Shown here: piece after piece, positions 2,292 through 19,230 of the stretch | How positions within the stretch are numbered: position 1 is the stretch's first letter | How the letters are laid out: each line of letters begins with the position of its first letter | Virus record (IMG/VR): IMGVR_UViG_3300011987_000012 | Location: 1-28,711 of that record | Source: a virus | Direction: 5' to 3' (one strand) | DNA length: 28,711 bases | Program-made: the position numbers and the translations under genes | Notes under the pieces: generated by a model | Told to the model about the DNA's origin: nothing | Databases searched by the model: none | What the model saw: the letters and a program-made list of their open reading frames with translations, nothing else

Positions 2292-2485
2292 CGCCCCGCG
2301 AGAAAGATTGCCTAGCCTCGCTCGTCCACCATCTCGACGGCTCCCAGATCATCGAGGCGGACGACCTCATGCGCGACATCGAGTACCTCGCCAAGACCAG
2401 CAGCGGCCCCATCGTCTTCGACGAGGACACCCTGTTCGACACTCTCGCTGAGGTCGGCCAACGCCACGCGGACGCCGGCCGATGA
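2288..2485 (+). CDS. hypothetical helical protein, 65 aa
   Basis: ATG overlaps the upstream stop. The product is acidic and probably all-helical (DLMRDIEYLAKTSSG in the middle, DTLFDTLAEVGQRHADAGR at the end). No Cys clusters or known motif. Its stop overlaps the ATG of the first large helix-turn-helix gene, so it is probably co-translated with it. Confidence 0.62.
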   Translation: MTPREKDCLASLVHHLDGSQIIEADDLMRDIEYLAKTSSGPIVFDEDTLFDTLAEVGQRHADAGR

Positions 2486-3558
2486 GTACCAAACATGTGC
2501 CGATCTGCGACTGCGGATGGCAAGGCTCACCCACCACGCCCGCCCGTGTCGCCTACTCGTTCCGGCAGCACTCATGTGCCCGGCAGATCACCAAGGACGC
2601 AAAGGCCGCGAACGGCCGCGCGATCGCCGCCCGGGTCGACCACACCCCCAAACCGTGCCACCACAAGCAGGTCACTCACGTCCACGGCACCTACGCCTGC
2701 TACGTCCTGGACAGATGCCACTGCACGCCGTGCAGCACCGAGCGCTCCAGGTGGGAACGCACCACATCCCGAGCCAAGGCCTACGGCCGGTGGGACAACC
2801 TCGTCGACGCGACGCCGGCACGTGAGCACATCACCGCCCTGGCAGCGCAAGGGATGGGGCTGAAGCGCATCGTCGCTGTCTCCGACATCTCCCAAGGCTT
2901 GCTGTGGAAGCTCATCTACGGCAAACGCCACAAGGATGGATCCCGGATCCCGTCGGTGCGAATCACCAAGTCAGCCCATGCCAGGATCCTCGCCATCAGG
3001 CTCGACCTCGCAGACGGCGCCAAGATCTCTTCGATCGGCACCACACGCCGGATACAGGCCCTCGTCGCGGTCGGCTGGTCACAGTCGAAAATCGCCGCCC
3101 GCCTCGGCATCGGCCGGTCCAACTTCACCGCCCTCGCACAAGGCCGAACCGGCGTCACCACGGCACGCGCCAAGGCCGTCGCGGACCTGTACGACCAGCT
3201 GTGGAACACGGCGCCACCACGGGCCGAGTGGCGCGACAAGATCGCCTACACGCGCAGCATCCGGTACGCCGCACTGGCTGGCTGGGTTGTCCCGATGGCA
3301 TGGGATGAAGACACCCTCGACAACCCTGAGGCGACGCCTGATCTTGGCCAGGTCTCGCTTCTCAATGGCAGGCCGATGAAGTTCGAGCTTGAGGACATCG
3401 ACTTCATCCTCGACAACGACCCGCTCACCATCGACCAGCTGGCCGACCGCCTGCACGTCACCCGGGACACCATCGAGCACCGCCTAGCCCGGACCGACCG
3501 GCGCGACCTGCTCGCCAGGATGATCCGCAACAAGACCGTGCAGGAGAACGCGGCATGA
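2482..3558 (+). CDS. helix-turn-helix DNA-binding protein, first of a tandem paralogous pair
   Basis: A 358-residue protein. The N-terminus is Cys-rich (C9, C11, C32, C73, and CHCTPC around 79-84), suggesting a zinc-binding head. Three helix-turn-helix-like segments follow: about 115-142, 190-222 (ALVAVGWSQSKIAARLGIGR) and 306-340 (LTIDQLADRLHVTRDTIEHR). The segment GWVVPMAWDEDTLDNPE near 268-284 is a signature of an actinobacterial/actinophage DNA-binding family. The next gene is a shorter copy sharing the CHCxPC head, the middle HTH and the C-terminal HTH. The role is probably transcriptional regulation, but targets are unknown. The dyads in this window are candidates. Confidence 0.82.
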   Translation: MSTKHVPICDCGWQGSPTTPARVAYSFRQHSCARQITKDAKAANGRAIAARVDHTPKPCHHKQVTHVHGTYACYVLDRCHCTPCSTERSRWERTTSRAKAYGRWDNLVDATPAREHITALAAQGMGLKRIVAVSDISQGLLWKLIYGKRHKDGSRIPSVRITKSAHARILAIRLDLADGAKISSIGTTRRIQALVAVGWSQSKIAARLGIGRSNFTALAQGRTGVTTARAKAVADLYDQLWNTAPPRAEWRDKIAYTRSIRYAALAGWVVPMAWDEDTLDNPEATPDLGQVSLLNGRPMKFELEDIDFILDNDPLTIDQLADRLHVTRDTIEHRLARTDRRDLLARMIRNKTVQENAA

Positions 3559-4388
3559 CCGATCAGGTTTGCATCAAACGAGACCTGTCCAGGTGGCCAA
3601 CATGCCACTGCCCACCGTGCAAAGTCCAGCGTCGCCGGATGGCCAAGCTGCGCCGCACCGGGCGCCTACCACGCCCTGACCCGGCCCTGGCGTGGGAGCG
3701 GATCGACGCGTGGATGGGTGCGGGGTACTCGGCGGCGTGGATCGCGACCGCCTGCGGACTGCAGATGCGCAACATTGAGTCCGCCCTGTCGGAGCGCAAC
3801 GCCGGGCACGTGCGCAAGCTTGGGGCGACCGTTACCGGGCGGATCATGGCCGCTGACATCAGGACCGGCACCGCGGGCCACTGCGACGCACTGGTGGCAC
3901 GCCGGCGCCTGCAGGCCCTGGCGTGCCACGGCTTCGACACCAGCCGCCTCCAGGCCGCGTCGGGGATCTCGTTCGTGACGTTGGCTGCGATCCGCCGCGG
4001 CGCCACCACGAACATCACCGCGGCGCGCCACCACCAGATCGCCGACCTGTACGAGCAGCTGTCTGGCCAGTTTGGCACGTCGACGGAAGCCAAACGCAGG
4101 GCAACCCTCGCCGGGTGGGTGCCACCCATGGGTTGGGACAACATCGATGACCCCACCGAAACCCCTGACACCGGTGGCAGTTCAGGGTGGACCAGCAGCC
4201 AAAGGTTCGACCTGGACGACGTCGAGTTCCTCCTGGGCATCACGCCCTACACCCTCGACCAGCTCGCTGAACGCCTGGGCGTCACCAAGTCGGCCATCGA
4301 GCACGCCTGTGAACGCAAGAACCGACGCGACATCCTTGCCCGCCTGGCACGCAACACCACCACCCGTGACCGGGCACAAGCGGCATGA
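3555..4388 (+). CDS. helix-turn-helix DNA-binding protein, second of a tandem paralogous pair
   Basis: A 277-residue paralogue of the preceding gene, starting in its stop codon. Shared landmarks are CHCPPC at 17-22, RRRLQALACHGFDTSRLQAA (about 116-135), IADLYEQL (162-169), GWVPPMGWDNIDDP (187-200) and the final LDQLAERLGVTKSAIEHACE (234-253). Compared with its neighbour it lacks much of the extra N-terminal region. The pair looks like an old tandem duplication, since identity is confined to motifs. It is probably a DNA-binding regulator acting with the WhiB protein encoded immediately downstream. Confidence 0.82.
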   Translation: MTDQVCIKRDLSRWPTCHCPPCKVQRRRMAKLRRTGRLPRPDPALAWERIDAWMGAGYSAAWIATACGLQMRNIESALSERNAGHVRKLGATVTGRIMAADIRTGTAGHCDALVARRRLQALACHGFDTSRLQAASGISFVTLAAIRRGATTNITAARHHQIADLYEQLSGQFGTSTEAKRRATLAGWVPPMGWDNIDDPTETPDTGGSSGWTSSQRFDLDDVEFLLGITPYTLDQLAERLGVTKSAIEHACERKNRRDILARLARNTTTRDRAQAA

Positions 4389-4708
4389 CACCCAACCTGA
4401 GGTCCCTGCTCGACGGGAAGTCAGCATGGACCGCTGACGCTGCGTGCGCGGGCCAGTACGAGCTGTACGACACCGCTGCAGCTCTGCCTGTCCTGGCATC
4501 CGTCAGGAGGGTCACGTTGCGCGCCAAAGCCCTCCAGGCCGCCCGAGCCATGTGCGGGACCTGCGAGGTGCTCCGCCGTTGTGAGGAAGCGTCAGCGACC
4601 GAGAGCGACGGGTTCTGGGCTGGCATGACCGAGGCAGAACGCGACACCCGCTGGTACCACCAACGCCACCCAGCTGGCACCGACGACACCAATGAGGAGA
4701 CAGCCTGA
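4385..4708 (+). CDS. WhiB-family iron-sulfur transcriptional regulator
   Basis: A 107-residue protein with the four WhiB cysteines in canonical spacing: C21, C57, C60 and C66 (C-x35-C-x2-C-x5-C). In this family they hold a 4Fe-4S cluster. GFWAG at 76-80 corresponds to the G[V/I]WGG turn that contacts the sigma factor, with the second-last Gly replaced by Ala, and EAER follows as usual. WhiB proteins bind sigma region 4 and are confined to actinobacteria and their phages, where they can redirect host transcription. Start is ATGA-coupled to the upstream helix-turn-helix gene; the stop overlaps the initiator-like gene. Confidence 0.9.
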   Translation: MTPNLRSLLDGKSAWTADAACAGQYELYDTAAALPVLASVRRVTLRAKALQAARAMCGTCEVLRRCEEASATESDGFWAGMTEAERDTRWYHQRHPAGTDDTNEETA

Positions 4709-5520
4709 TGGCCCGCACCCACGCCCGAATCAAACTTGCCATGTGGGCCGACGAGGACTTCCGGGACCTACCAGGCGAGTCACAGTGGTTGTACATGCTG
4801 CTGATGACGTCCTCAGGGCTGTCCTACGCCGGTGTTGCGGACTGGCGGCCGGCACGCATCGCACCCATGGCTGTCGACGTCTCACCGGACCGCGTCGAGT
4901 CCGCAGCGGTCGAGCTGGAGCAGAACCACTACATCGTCATCGACCGTGACACCGAGGAAGTGCTGGTCCGATCGTTCATCCGCAACGACGGCCTGATGGA
5001 ACAACCCAACGTGGCCGCCGCGATGGTCAAGGCCTACGGCGCGATCGCGTCGAGAACCCTCCAGGCGGTCATCGTCCACGAGCTGAAGAGGCTCTACAAG
5101 GAGGAGCCGACGCTGAAGGCCTGGGCCGCCCGACCCGACGTCAGAGGGCTCCTGAAGAAGCGGGCCATGACCCCCGACCAAGCCCTTGAGGTACTACCTC
5201 CGAACATGGCCGGTTTCCCCTCCGACTGGGGTCACACCGAACCATCGTCAAACCCTTCCGGTAACCCTTCGCCTAACCCTTCGGGAACAGATCAACAAAA
5301 GGGTTCCACAAACCCATCGGTCGATCCCCCCCTCACTCCTACTCCCTCTCCTACTCCCTCTCCCCCAGGTACTCAACTACGTAACACAACCTCACCAGAG
5401 AAACGACCAACACGCGGAGCCCCCTGCGGAGACCTACCCGAACACGACCCCGACAAGTGCTCCGGCTGTATCGCCCTAGCTGATACCAACCCACCCACCG
5501 ACTGGAGAAAACGCGCATGA
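4708..5520 (+). CDS. putative replication initiator / replisome-organiser-like protein
   Basis: A 270-residue protein. The first 130 residues (MARTHARIKLAMWADEDFRD, then ESQWLYMLLMTSS, then VLVRSFIRNDG and QPNVAAAMVKAYGAI) match the winged-helix-type N-terminal region of phage replication initiators. Residues about 180-225 are a Pro/Ser/Thr/Asn linker with NPSx repeats and PTPSPTPSPP. The tail has a compact Cys-rich end (PCGDLPEHDPDKCSGC). The DNA of the linker carries regular direct repeats described separately as a possible origin, as in lambda O. The ATG lies directly at the WhiB stop (TGATG). Function is inferred from architecture; a plain helix-turn-helix regulator is the alternative. 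Confidence 0.68.
   Translation: MARTHARIKLAMWADEDFRDLPGESQWLYMLLMTSSGLSYAGVADWRPARIAPMAVDVSPDRVESAAVELEQNHYIVIDRDTEEVLVRSFIRNDGLMEQPNVAAAMVKAYGAIASRTLQAVIVHELKRLYKEEPTLKAWAARPDVRGLLKKRAMTPDQALEVLPPNMAGFPSDWGHTEPSSNPSGNPSPNPSGTDQQKGSTNPSVDPPLTPTPSPTPSPPGTQLRNTTSPEKRPTRGAPCGDLPEHDPDKCSGCIALADTNPPTDWRKRA
5251..5318 (+). repeat. iteron-like direct repeats, candidate replication origin
   Basis: AACCCTTC occurs at 5251, 5263 and 5275, a strict 12-base period. A one-mismatch copy (AACCCATC) at 5311 is still in phase (36 bases later), and an inverted AAGGGTT lies at 5299-5305. The repeats sit in the linker of the initiator-like gene and all encode Asn-Pro-Ser using the Pro codon CCT, although neighbouring genes prefer CCC/CCG. 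A protein-level NPS repeat alone would not require identical wobble bases. Confidence 0.45.
5338..5361 (+). repeat. 12-bp tandem repeat in a polypyrimidine tract
   Basis: CCTACTCCCTCT is repeated exactly at 5338-5349 and 5350-5361, inside a nearly pure pyrimidine run from about 5325 to 5367. It encodes the PTPSPTPSPP linker. Just downstream (5368-5405) the sequence becomes locally richer in A and T. Together with the adjacent AACCCTTC repeats, this strand-asymmetric, easily melted stretch fits an origin, or just a low-complexity linker. Confidence 0.6.
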
Positions 5521-15723: not shown

Positions 15724-16721
15724 AGCCCTACTACGCGGACGAATCCGTGACGCTGTACCACGGTGACGCACTGACGGTCCTGACGTCGCTGCCGGACGCC
15801 TCGGTCAACTGCTGCGTGACGAGCCCCCCCTACTTCGGGCTGCGTGACTACGGCGTCGACGGTCAGCTCGGGCTCGAAGCCTCACCCGCCGAGTACGTGG
15901 AGAACCTGCGAGCGCGGTTCGCTCAGGTGCGTCGTGTGCTCGCCGACGACGGGACGCTCTGGCTCAACCTCGGAGACTCCTACGTCTCGTCGAACGGTCA
16001 CACCGATCCCAATGTAACCAGCACCCTGCAAGGACGCAGACAGGCCGGGATGACACCGGGCATCGTCGGCCGCCGCGCCAACCTTCCCCCAAAGAGCCTG
16101 CTTGGGATGCCATGGAGGACGGTTTTCGCGCTGCAAGACGACGGATGGACGCTCCGCAACGACATCATCTGGGCCAAGCCGAACGCCATGCCTGAGAGCG
16201 TGACCGATCGGCTCTCGACCAAGCATGAGCACCTGTTCCTGTTCGCCAAGTCACCGCGATATTGGTTCGACCTCGACCCCATCCGCGCAACCCTGATCCG
16301 ACCCGAGGCGCTGACCGAGGGTCTGGTGTTCGGTGGCAAGTCACCCGACGTCGGTAGGCGTAGAGGTGCCACCTACGGCAAGGCGTCGTCCGCGAACCTC
16401 TCACCTACTGGCACTCGGCACGATGACATCTATGACGCCAAGGGGAGAAACCCCGGCGACGTCTGGTCAATCCCCACGCAACCATTCCCCGACGCGCACT
16501 TCGCCGTCATGCCACGAACCCTGGCAGAGCGGGCCATCCAAGCCGGTTGTAAGCCGGGCGGCACGGTCCTCGACCCGTTCAGCGGCTCGGGCACTACGGG
16601 CCTCGCAGCAGCCCGCCACGGCCGCAAGTACGTCGGCATCGACCTCAACGCCGAGTACCTCGACCTGAGTCTGCGGACACGGCTGGCGCAACCTGGTCTG
16701 GACCTTGGGGACGCGTCATGA
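15720..16721 (+). CDS. DNA (N4-cytosine or N6-adenine) methyltransferase, beta class
   Basis: A 333-residue enzyme starting at GTG 15720 (GTGA overlap) with GGAGGAG a few bases ahead. Motif IV TSPPY (residues 34-38) comes first and SAM-binding motif I DPFSGSGTTG (285-294) comes near the end, which is the beta-class order. GTLWLNLGDSY and WRTVFALQDDGWTLRNDIIW, RYWFDLDPIR, NPGDVWSIPTQP are further family landmarks. It transfers a methyl group from S-adenosylmethionine to the exocyclic amino group of C or A; specificity cannot be read. No restriction endonuclease partner is seen, so it is probably a solitary phage methylase that protects DNA. Confidence 0.93.
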   Translation: MKPYYADESVTLYHGDALTVLTSLPDASVNCCVTSPPYFGLRDYGVDGQLGLEASPAEYVENLRARFAQVRRVLADDGTLWLNLGDSYVSSNGHTDPNVTSTLQGRRQAGMTPGIVGRRANLPPKSLLGMPWRTVFALQDDGWTLRNDIIWAKPNAMPESVTDRLSTKHEHLFLFAKSPRYWFDLDPIRATLIRPEALTEGLVFGGKSPDVGRRRGATYGKASSANLSPTGTRHDDIYDAKGRNPGDVWSIPTQPFPDAHFAVMPRTLAERAIQAGCKPGGTVLDPFSGSGTTGLAAARHGRKYVGIDLNAEYLDLSLRTRLAQPGLDLGDAS

Positions 16722-19230
16722 CCCGGCTGGAGTAGCCCTGAGCACAGGATTCCTCGAAGCCGCAGCCCGCATGTTCGACCCGAACTGGCGGGCTGCCTAC
16801 GCAACCCCCCGAGACCCCGCCGTCAAGCTCGACCCCCGCACCATCCAAACCCCCGCGCTGGACCTGATCGACGCCGCACTGGTCGAAGCTGCGACCACTC
16901 CTGATGCGCGGCTCATCATCTGCATGCCCCCCCAGGAGGGCAAGCTGGTCGATCACAACGAGGTTGTCCCCACACCTGACGGATACCGGCGACACGGCGA
17001 CCTACAGCCCGGCGACTGGGTCTACCACCCCACCGGTCGCCCAATCCGGGTCACAGCCATCAGCCACGACGGCCAGGCCAGCATGCGGGTCACCACCAGC
17101 GAGGGTGGCTCTGTGGTCGTTCACCCGGCACACGAGTGGACCATCTTCGACCGCGCGCGTGGTCAGTGGACGACGGTCGAGACTCGCTCGCTCGCGGCTC
17201 GCCGACTGCAACAGACCAACGGCCGATTCACCGTGCAACTCCCGGACCGCGGGCCGCTCGAAGGACGCCGCTCTGATGACGTCCCCCTGGACCCCTACAC
17301 GCTCGGGGTTTGGCTCGGCGACGGCTCGACGAGCAAAGGCGCTGTCACCCATCACGAGGACGACCACTACGTCCTGCCCTACAAGGTGTCATCTCGACAG
17401 GTCCACCCCACCACTGGCTGCGTCACGACCTACTACGTGGGGCTCTGGGCCGATCTGAAGGCCGCAGGCGTCGCCGGCGACAAGCACATCCCGCACGCCT
17501 ACCTCTGGGGTGACATCCAGACCCGATGGGACGTCCTGTGCGGACTCATCGACTCAGACGGCAGCATCGCCGTCAGTGGCCAGGTTCTGTTCGCCAACAC
17601 GAACACTTTGCTAGCCAAGCAGACGGCCCAACTCATCAGGTCGCTGGGCTACCGGGTCGGTGAGCACGTCGTTCCTCCTCGCACGTCAAGCAGTGGGATC
17701 GTCGGCAAGCTGCCGGTCCACATCGTGACGTACTCGCCCCGTGACGGGATGGTCCCTGCCCGCCTGGCACGCAAGGCCGGAAAGATCAAGGGAACAGCGC
17801 AGCACCGCCGCATCTCGATCGTGTCTGTCGAGCCTGTCGAGCCGCGCCCTGGTCGGTGCATCACCGTGGCGAGCACGGATGGGCTCTACCTCGTGGGCGA
17901 GCAGATGATCCCCACGCACAACAGCTTCCGGTGTTCCAGGTGGTTCCCGCTGTGGCTGCTGCACCGCAACCCAGACACCCGCATCGCGATCATCTCCTAC
18001 GAGTCCAACATCGCCAGGCGTTGGGGCCGCGCCGTCCGCGACACCATCACCCAGCACGGCAAAGCCCTCGGGCTCAGAATCCGCGACGACCTCGCCGCAC
18101 AGCATGAGTGGCAGCTCGACGGCCACGAAGGCGGCGTGTACACCGCTGGCATCGGTGGCGCACTGACCGGCCGCCCGGTGGATTTGCTGATCATCGACGA
18201 CCCGATCAAGGACCGGGCTGATGCGGACTCCCCCACAATCCGGCAGAACGTCATTGACTGGTGGACCGACACTGGATCCACGCGTCTCGCCCCTGGCGCC
18301 CCTGTCGTCCTGATCCAGACCAGGTGGCACCCGGACGACCTGGCCGGGTGGCTCCTGAGCCAGGAGGACGCGCACCGGTGGAAGCTCATCAGCATCCCCG
18401 CCCAAGCCGAGTGCCTGGATCCGGCAGACGACCCGCTCGGCCGGCAACTCGGGGAGTTCATGGCCAGCGCGCGCCGGCGCACCGTGGCGCAGTGGGAGAA
18501 GATCAAGGCCGCCCTACCCGCCCGGACGTGGGCTGCCCTGTACCAGCAGCGGCCGACCCCTGCTGAGGGCACGGTGTGGCAGGAGTCGTGGATCAGCGCG
18601 TTCCGCGGCCGCACCGGCGACTCCATGCACCAGTGGGCGCGGGTCCTGGTCGGTGTCGACCCCGCCGTCACGTCCAAGACGTCCAGTGATGAGACGGGCA
18701 TCGTGGTGACCGCGATGGACACCGAGGGCACCGCCTGGGTGGTCGACGACAGGTCCTTGCGCGGAACCCCCACAGAGTGGGGCGTCGCGGTCTGGCACGC
18801 GGTGTTCGACTGGAACGCGACAGGGATCGTCATCGAGGACAACCAGGGCGGCGAGATGGTCCTGACCGTCCTACAAACCTCTTGGCAGACCGCGATCGCG
18901 TCATACCGCAAGCTGCACCCGTCTTGGCAGCCGCCCCTGGCCCCACCGATCACCCGGGTCCACGCCCACAGGTCCAAGCGGATCCGCGCCGAGTCCGTGG
19001 CTGCGATCTACGAGGTCGGCAAGGTCCGCCACGCAGCTGACGGCACCGACCGGCTGCAGGCGCTTGAGGATCAGATGACGGCCTGGACCGGTGTGGGGGA
19101 TAGCCCGGACCGGATCGACGCATTGGTTCACGCCCTGACCGCGCTGTTCCTGCCCAAGCATGCGGACGCCGGGGTCGGCGCCGCCCGTCAGCAGGCTGCG
19201 TCCCGTCGCCGTGCAGCTGGTCGACGCTAG
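16705..19230 (+). CDS. terL: terminase large subunit with inserted intein
   Basis: The 841-codon frame encodes the packaging motor ATPase/nuclease. The Walker A motif (MPPQEGK, ending at K80, then S407) is split by a 326-residue intein and restored by splicing. Walker B is DLLIIDDP (catalytic Asp498-Asp499). The nuclease part has GVDPAVTSK (D652), IVIEDNQGG, and DRIDALVHALTALF. The start is uncertain: TTG 16705 (used here) has no obvious ribosome-binding site, CTG 16738 follows a GGAG, and ATG 16771 lies within conserved sequence. The first 17 bases overlap the methylase gene. The extein is about 515 residues, normal for the family. Confidence 0.93.
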   Translation: MGTRHDPAGVALSTGFLEAAARMFDPNWRAAYATPRDPAVKLDPRTIQTPALDLIDAALVEAATTPDARLIICMPPQEGKLVDHNEVVPTPDGYRRHGDLQPGDWVYHPTGRPIRVTAISHDGQASMRVTTSEGGSVVVHPAHEWTIFDRARGQWTTVETRSLAARRLQQTNGRFTVQLPDRGPLEGRRSDDVPLDPYTLGVWLGDGSTSKGAVTHHEDDHYVLPYKVSSRQVHPTTGCVTTYYVGLWADLKAAGVAGDKHIPHAYLWGDIQTRWDVLCGLIDSDGSIAVSGQVLFANTNTLLAKQTAQLIRSLGYRVGEHVVPPRTSSSGIVGKLPVHIVTYSPRDGMVPARLARKAGKIKGTAQHRRISIVSVEPVEPRPGRCITVASTDGLYLVGEQMIPTHNSFRCSRWFPLWLLHRNPDTRIAIISYESNIARRWGRAVRDTITQHGKALGLRIRDDLAAQHEWQLDGHEGGVYTAGIGGALTGRPVDLLIIDDPIKDRADADSPTIRQNVIDWWTDTGSTRLAPGAPVVLIQTRWHPDDLAGWLLSQEDAHRWKLISIPAQAECLDPADDPLGRQLGEFMASARRRTVAQWEKIKAALPARTWAALYQQRPTPAEGTVWQESWISAFRGRTGDSMHQWARVLVGVDPAVTSKTSSDETGIVVTAMDTEGTAWVVDDRSLRGTPTEWGVAVWHAVFDWNATGIVIEDNQGGEMVLTVLQTSWQTAIASYRKLHPSWQPPLAPPITRVHAHRSKRIRAESVAAIYEVGKVRHAADGTDRLQALEDQMTAWTGVGDSPDRIDALVHALTALFLPKHADAGVGAARQQAASRRRAAGRR
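16945..17922 (+). mobile_element. class 3-like intein with LAGLIDADG homing endonuclease
   Basis: Residues 81-406 of the terminase frame. It starts with Leu-Val-Asp, not Cys/Ser/Thr, and ends THN followed by Ser+1. The class 3 triad is present: W145 in HPAHEW, C385 in GRCITV (block F) and T404 in PTHN (block G), with H143 as the block B His. LAGLIDADG motifs are LGVWLGDGS (200-208) and LCGLIDSDGS (278-287), each retaining acidic Asp (D206, D285), so the endonuclease may be active. It inserts exactly at the Walker A Lys-Ser junction, a common intein site. Confidence 0.9.

Follow-up and report, generated by a model that had tools for sequence, protein, structure and literature searches.

A candidate replication origin within the gene of a phage replication initiator

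The initiator gene and its repeats

The stretch of viral DNA analysed here (the window; 28,711 nucleotides, positions 1 to 28,711 of IMG/VR record IMGVR_UViG_3300011987_000012) contains a group of short repeats within a plus-strand gene at 4708-5520, which encodes a putative replication initiator of 270 amino acids. The whole window is contained (99.96% identical) in a 49-kb virus contig that also carries a phage-integrase match. The original prediction of an initiator-like gene agrees with the membership of its product in the phrog_3171 family ('replication initiation protein'; PHROG hmmscan, E 8.9e-66, residues 1-255), and homologues of the protein are found in 334 phage records, many of them annotated as RepA-like or replication initiation proteins, from phages of Gordonia, Mycobacterium, Arthrobacter, Rhodococcus, Microbacterium, Corynebacterium and Thermobifida. 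A second family, phrog_1701 ('DnaD-like helicase loader'), matches the initiator weakly (E 6.5e-4). Searches with the protein gave no Pfam family at E<=0.1 (Phage_rep_O included), no NCBIfam family and no O-like PHROG at E<=0.001, and a scan of genome_contigs gave no relative. The N-terminal part (residues 1-160, encoded at 4708-5187 on the plus strand) is a putative iteron-binding domain: its AlphaFold2 model, built from a 55-row alignment (pLDDT 92, pTM 0.87), has the element order of a winged helix, and its viral matches in Foldseek include proteins named replisome organizer (best such E 5.5e-7).

Downstream of the sequence encoding this domain lie three 12-bp iterons on the plus strand, at 5251-5262 (AACCCTTCCGGT), 5263-5274 (AACCCTTCGCCT) and 5275-5286 (AACCCTTCGGGA), the first of which is conserved in L003-L007. 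The AACCCTTC repeats at 5251, 5263 and 5275, with their period of 12 bp, are thus placed exactly as had been predicted, as are two further copies: an inverted core, AAGGGTT, at 5299-5305 (minus strand), which falls on the same 12-bp grid (24 bp from 5275) and has common counterparts on that grid in relatives, and a degenerate iteron with one mismatch, AACCCATC, at 5311-5318 (plus strand), in phase at 36 bp from 5275. Next on the plus strand is a pyrimidine-strand ACTCC/CTCCTA tract (5335-5365), which encodes TPTPSPTPSPP and for which we propose a role in opening and helicase loading; the exact 12-bp tandem repeat CCTACTCCCTCT reported within it at 5338-5361 is also recovered by Tandem Repeats Finder (period 12, 100% match over 5336-5363). 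No DnaA boxes are found near the candidate origin in the window.

Across the window, AACCCTTC occurs six times against 0.34 expected, a count that was reached in 0 of 100 shuffles. The original prediction also read the use of CCT as a sign of constraint on the DNA itself, and CCT is indeed uncommon (12.8% of proline codons) yet provides four of the six in the linker. When the linker was resampled with synonymous codons according to the phage's own codon usage, at least four copies of AACCCTT/AAGGGTT arose with P=3.5e-4; however, the single gene is not decisive, because some 7-mer reaches at least four copies in about 5% of these peptide-preserving samples. The repeats are only moderately surprising given the NPSx peptide, and the window gene alone is suggestive of DNA-level constraint rather than proof of it; it is the relatives that settle the matter.

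Conservation among related phages

For the family analysis, 80 relatives were picked by alignment of the N-terminal protein sequence only and reduced to 51 representatives of less than 80% identity, and counts were compared with a null of 1000 synonymous-codon resamplings. Between codon 110 and the stop codon, these genes contain 99 copies of AACCCTT/AAGGGTT against 28.8 under the null (standard deviation 4.6, maximum 44), and codons 0-110 contain none. All six combinations of frame and strand are used by the 7-mer (NPS 42, KGS 16, EPF 4, EGF 4, ETL/LTL and others), and neighbouring copies are spaced by 12 bp (52 times), 24 bp (10) or 36 bp (2), with occasional spacings of 11, 22 and 23 bp that are not multiples of three. 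Two or more copies are present in 21 of the 51 relatives, and most of the others have different motifs on a 12-bp grid, such as TTACCCC, GACCCCTT, AACCCC, CCAATCCGA and GGCTAACC. In the close relatives L003-L007 the AACCCTT units persist, frequently with proline written as CCT and the preceding codon ending in a wobble T, and L007, which is 51% identical overall, has five such units. More distant phages also have copies of the 7-mer (Whack 9, Bran 8, Mufasa8 13), and in the Arthrobacter phage Mufasa8 most of the iterons lie past the initiator stop codon, in another annotated frame. The original prediction had named as contrary to it the case of relatives that keep the NPSx peptide and lose the DNA repeats; the reverse was found, with the DNA kept and the peptide changing with frame and orientation. 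These sequences show that the family conserves, as DNA, a 12-bp array of AACCCTT cores, oriented either way, just downstream of the coding sequence of the DNA-binding domain. In Mufasa8 (L012), the 13 iterons occupy 1942-2241 in two clusters and are followed by 8-bp CTCCTTAA repeats.

The association was also approached from the opposite direction: a search of IMG/VR with the DNA pattern AACCCTTN5AACCCTT alone returned at least 120 stretches, and a 13-bp spacing served as the control. A phrog_3171-like gene lies within 1 kb of 20 of the 120 matches listed for the 12-bp spacing, compared with 2 of the 120 listed for the control. Some of the other matches with at least three copies belong to other phage initiators, namely DnaD-like phrog_1701 proteins (L110, L132) and an O-like protein (L252).

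The type of iteron is accompanied by differences in the initiator at codons 99-101 (Q-P-N; 5002-5010, plus strand), the start of a helix spanning residues 100-111, which makes these residues candidates for reading bases. N occupies position 101 in 23 of the 24 genes that carry two or more AACCCTT copies and in 13 of the 31 others (Fisher test, 3e-5), and K at this position accompanies TTACCCC or GACCCC; a tree-based test of the link points in the same direction, with too few independent pairs. In phrog_1701 proteins related to L110 and L132 (L356-L387), SPNVV is found with AAGCCTT, and NPNVV with AACCCTT or AACCGTT, so that S versus N before PNVV may constitute a recognition code of one residue for one base. 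Because residue 101 and these phrog_1701 residues track the iteron type, the helix from residue 100 is a candidate reading helix.

Also conserved is the element downstream of the iterons. The 51 relatives contain 39 copies of CTCCTA, compared with 6.6 under the null (maximum 16), and none of its complement; ACTCC is present 85 times against 35, and (CTN)4, found in 14 of the genes, 49 times against 1.0. The spacing of ACTCC peaks at 6 and 7 bp, the latter of which breaks codon phase. This strand-specific tract is probably the site of opening and loading. Past the tract, subsets of relatives share two further motifs in differing frames, the palindrome TACGTA (5378-5383 in the window; 10 of 51 relatives) and TCACCAG (5392-5398, plus strand; 9 of 51).

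A group of members resembling Microbacterium phage R1 (L294, L296, L297, L303, L307 and L309) is without AACCCTT iterons and has an exact DnaA box, TTATCCACA, at a common place (about +658 to +665 from the initiator start), with CTA-rich repeats upstream of the box in most. Their sequences suggest a DnaA-dependent variant.

A proposed origin and rival explanations

Since distant relatives keep the DNA repeats though frame and orientation alter the protein text, the 12-base repeats are very probably docking sites at which the initiator starts genome copying, and we hold it to be highly likely that the region at about 5251-5400 is the replication origin of the phage, situated within the gene that encodes its initiator; the binding and the firing are what we infer. 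The prediction that the initiator gene contains an origin is supported by the retention of both the 7-mer and the 12-bp grid in relatives, and the C-termini of some relatives, which match 'replication initiation' and 'primosomal protein' PHROGs, also count in its favor. The best reading is a lambda-like origin within the gene of an initiator whose family lies outside Phage_rep_O. In the mechanism that we propose, the winged-helix N-terminus would bind the iterons cooperatively, in register along a single helix face. The tract beside them would open, and the exposed pyrimidine strand together with the C-terminal part of the initiator would bring in the replicative helicase. The NPSx/TPSPTP linker, which is disordered, would then be the coding shadow of origin DNA.

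Several observations weigh against this reading. The predicted A/T-richer stretch near the repeats is present but weak (0.45-0.53 in 40-bp windows versus about 0.33), and the window copy has only three direct perfect repeats and one inverted. The turn in GC skew expected near 5.3 kb is absent from the window, from the 49-kb contig and from the complete phages Whack and Bran, although GC skew is a poor discriminator here, almost all genes being on the same strand. Furthermore, searches of the PDB with the initiator by sequence and by fold gave no significant match, the fold result being the adverse one, and the C-terminus of the window initiator does not match the primosomal domain of its relatives.

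One rival account, in which the repeats are a mere coding trace of the repetitive NPSx linker and the DNA itself has no function, draws on the window peptide, which makes repeats fairly likely (the 5% of resamplings noted above). It is refuted at the level of the family, where the 7-mer persists in all six combinations of frame and orientation, encoding other peptides (KGS, EPF, EGF, ETL), at spacings that are not triplets and, in Mufasa8, past the stop codon, and we regard it as very improbable. An operator, by which the initiator would autoregulate transcription of its own gene while replication begins elsewhere, is easier to entertain, given that the sites are intragenic and that iteron plasmids include cases of initiators that regulate themselves. 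This explanation too is unlikely: the sites lie 540 bp into the gene, far from a promoter, and the conserved strand-specific tract after them would be superfluous in an operator. There is still less to commend the idea that the repeats serve as a parS-like centromere for the ParB-like product of the gene at 540-1667, despite the position of that gene 3.6 kb upstream and the fact that parS arrays can be direct repeats, as are the short repeats of the mycobacteriophage RedRock parS (PMC7157519). The repeats follow the initiator gene and not ParB, and parS was rejected on finding that Whack, Bran and the L289 and L304 records have the same iterons and no ParB_N match; we give this possibility hardly any weight.

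Other features of the window may be recorded here. The C-terminus of the initiator includes a Cys-rich C-x10-C-x2-C stretch (5425-5469), at the position of which many relatives have CxxH...CxxC, perhaps a zinc finger, and others a primosomal-type domain. The ParB-like gene lies about 3-3.6 kb upstream of the initiator, and just before a WhiB-like gene and the initiator stands a pair of neighbouring genes for paralogous helix-turn-helix proteins (phrog_1590, of unknown function; 2482-3558 and 3555-4388). Further downstream, a terminase-like open reading frame (16705-19230) has, as read by eye, an apparent intein between ...PPQEGK and ...HN/S, seemingly with no Cys/Ser start and with blocks reading HEW and CITV, so perhaps of class 3.

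Comparison with known replication origins

By profile score the window protein is a member of the phrog_3171 initiators of actinobacteriophages ('RepA-like replication initiator'), for which no description of an origin or of iterons was found in the searched literature; a text search for the iteron letters returned nothing relevant. For the RepA of mycobacteriophages Miko and Jeeves, likewise a phage initiator named RepA-like, the authors saw no repeats and suspected a lambda-like origin within or adjacent to repA (PMC7157519). Related Mycobacterium plasmids were not matched by the window initiator. The present candidate is exact and recodable, occurs in a family of several hundred sequenced phages (the 334 homologue records) and would be useful for origin plasmids. 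The family also supplies a natural series of initiator and iteron pairs from which DNA recognition by a winged-helix initiator could be learned, and origin DNA would explain the repetitive peptide linkers of phage initiators.

The phrog_1701 genes share with the window the gene position and a 12-bp grid, of AAGCCTT or AACCCTT iterons, and differ in a core base that is tied to S versus N before PNVV. Unlike the phrog_3171 tract, the EQEQEQ tract that follows the phrog_1701 iterons is not above the synonymous null for DNA constraint. It is conceivable, though we advance it tentatively and with some doubt, that the winged-helix initiators of both families share one origin grammar, in which 12-bp iterons, with a core varying with one or two residues of [N/S/Q]-P-[N/K/R/H], precede a strand-specific TnnT/CTN tract that would be a phage counterpart of the DnaD/DnaA element for single-strand loading; the NPSx and TPSPTP peptides would be shadows of origin DNA, and origins could be read from sequence in hundreds of phages.

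At the unwinding region of oriC in B. subtilis, DnaD recognises 5'-TnnT-3' opposite the DnaA-trios (3'-GAT-5') (PMC10201434, PMC8287927). There, as in the phages, a strand-specific tract lies past double-stranded initiator sites, and relatives with the 6-bp period read as tandem TnnT on the pyrimidine strand, whereas members with the 7-bp period, and in part the window, have no continuous triplet phase. The likeness of the tract to the DnaD Recognition Element and DnaA-trios may serve as a lead only.

A close parallel is that of lambda O and ori-lambda, in which iterons lie just after the coding sequence of the DNA-binding domain, the opening region is downstream and the C-terminal part of the protein recruits the helicase. 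The location of lambda iterons within gene O is described in PMC7157519. The window resembles lambda in having its iterons within the initiator coding sequence, after the part for the DNA-binding domain, and, as proposed here, in a downstream opening region and a helicase-recruiting C-terminal part. It differs in that its initiator has neither a Pfam match (Phage_rep_O included) nor an O-like PHROG hit, in its 12-bp grid of a 7-bp core in either orientation, and in a downstream tract that is C/T-rich and not strongly A/T-rich. Origins inside initiator genes are of a known kind, that of lambda O.
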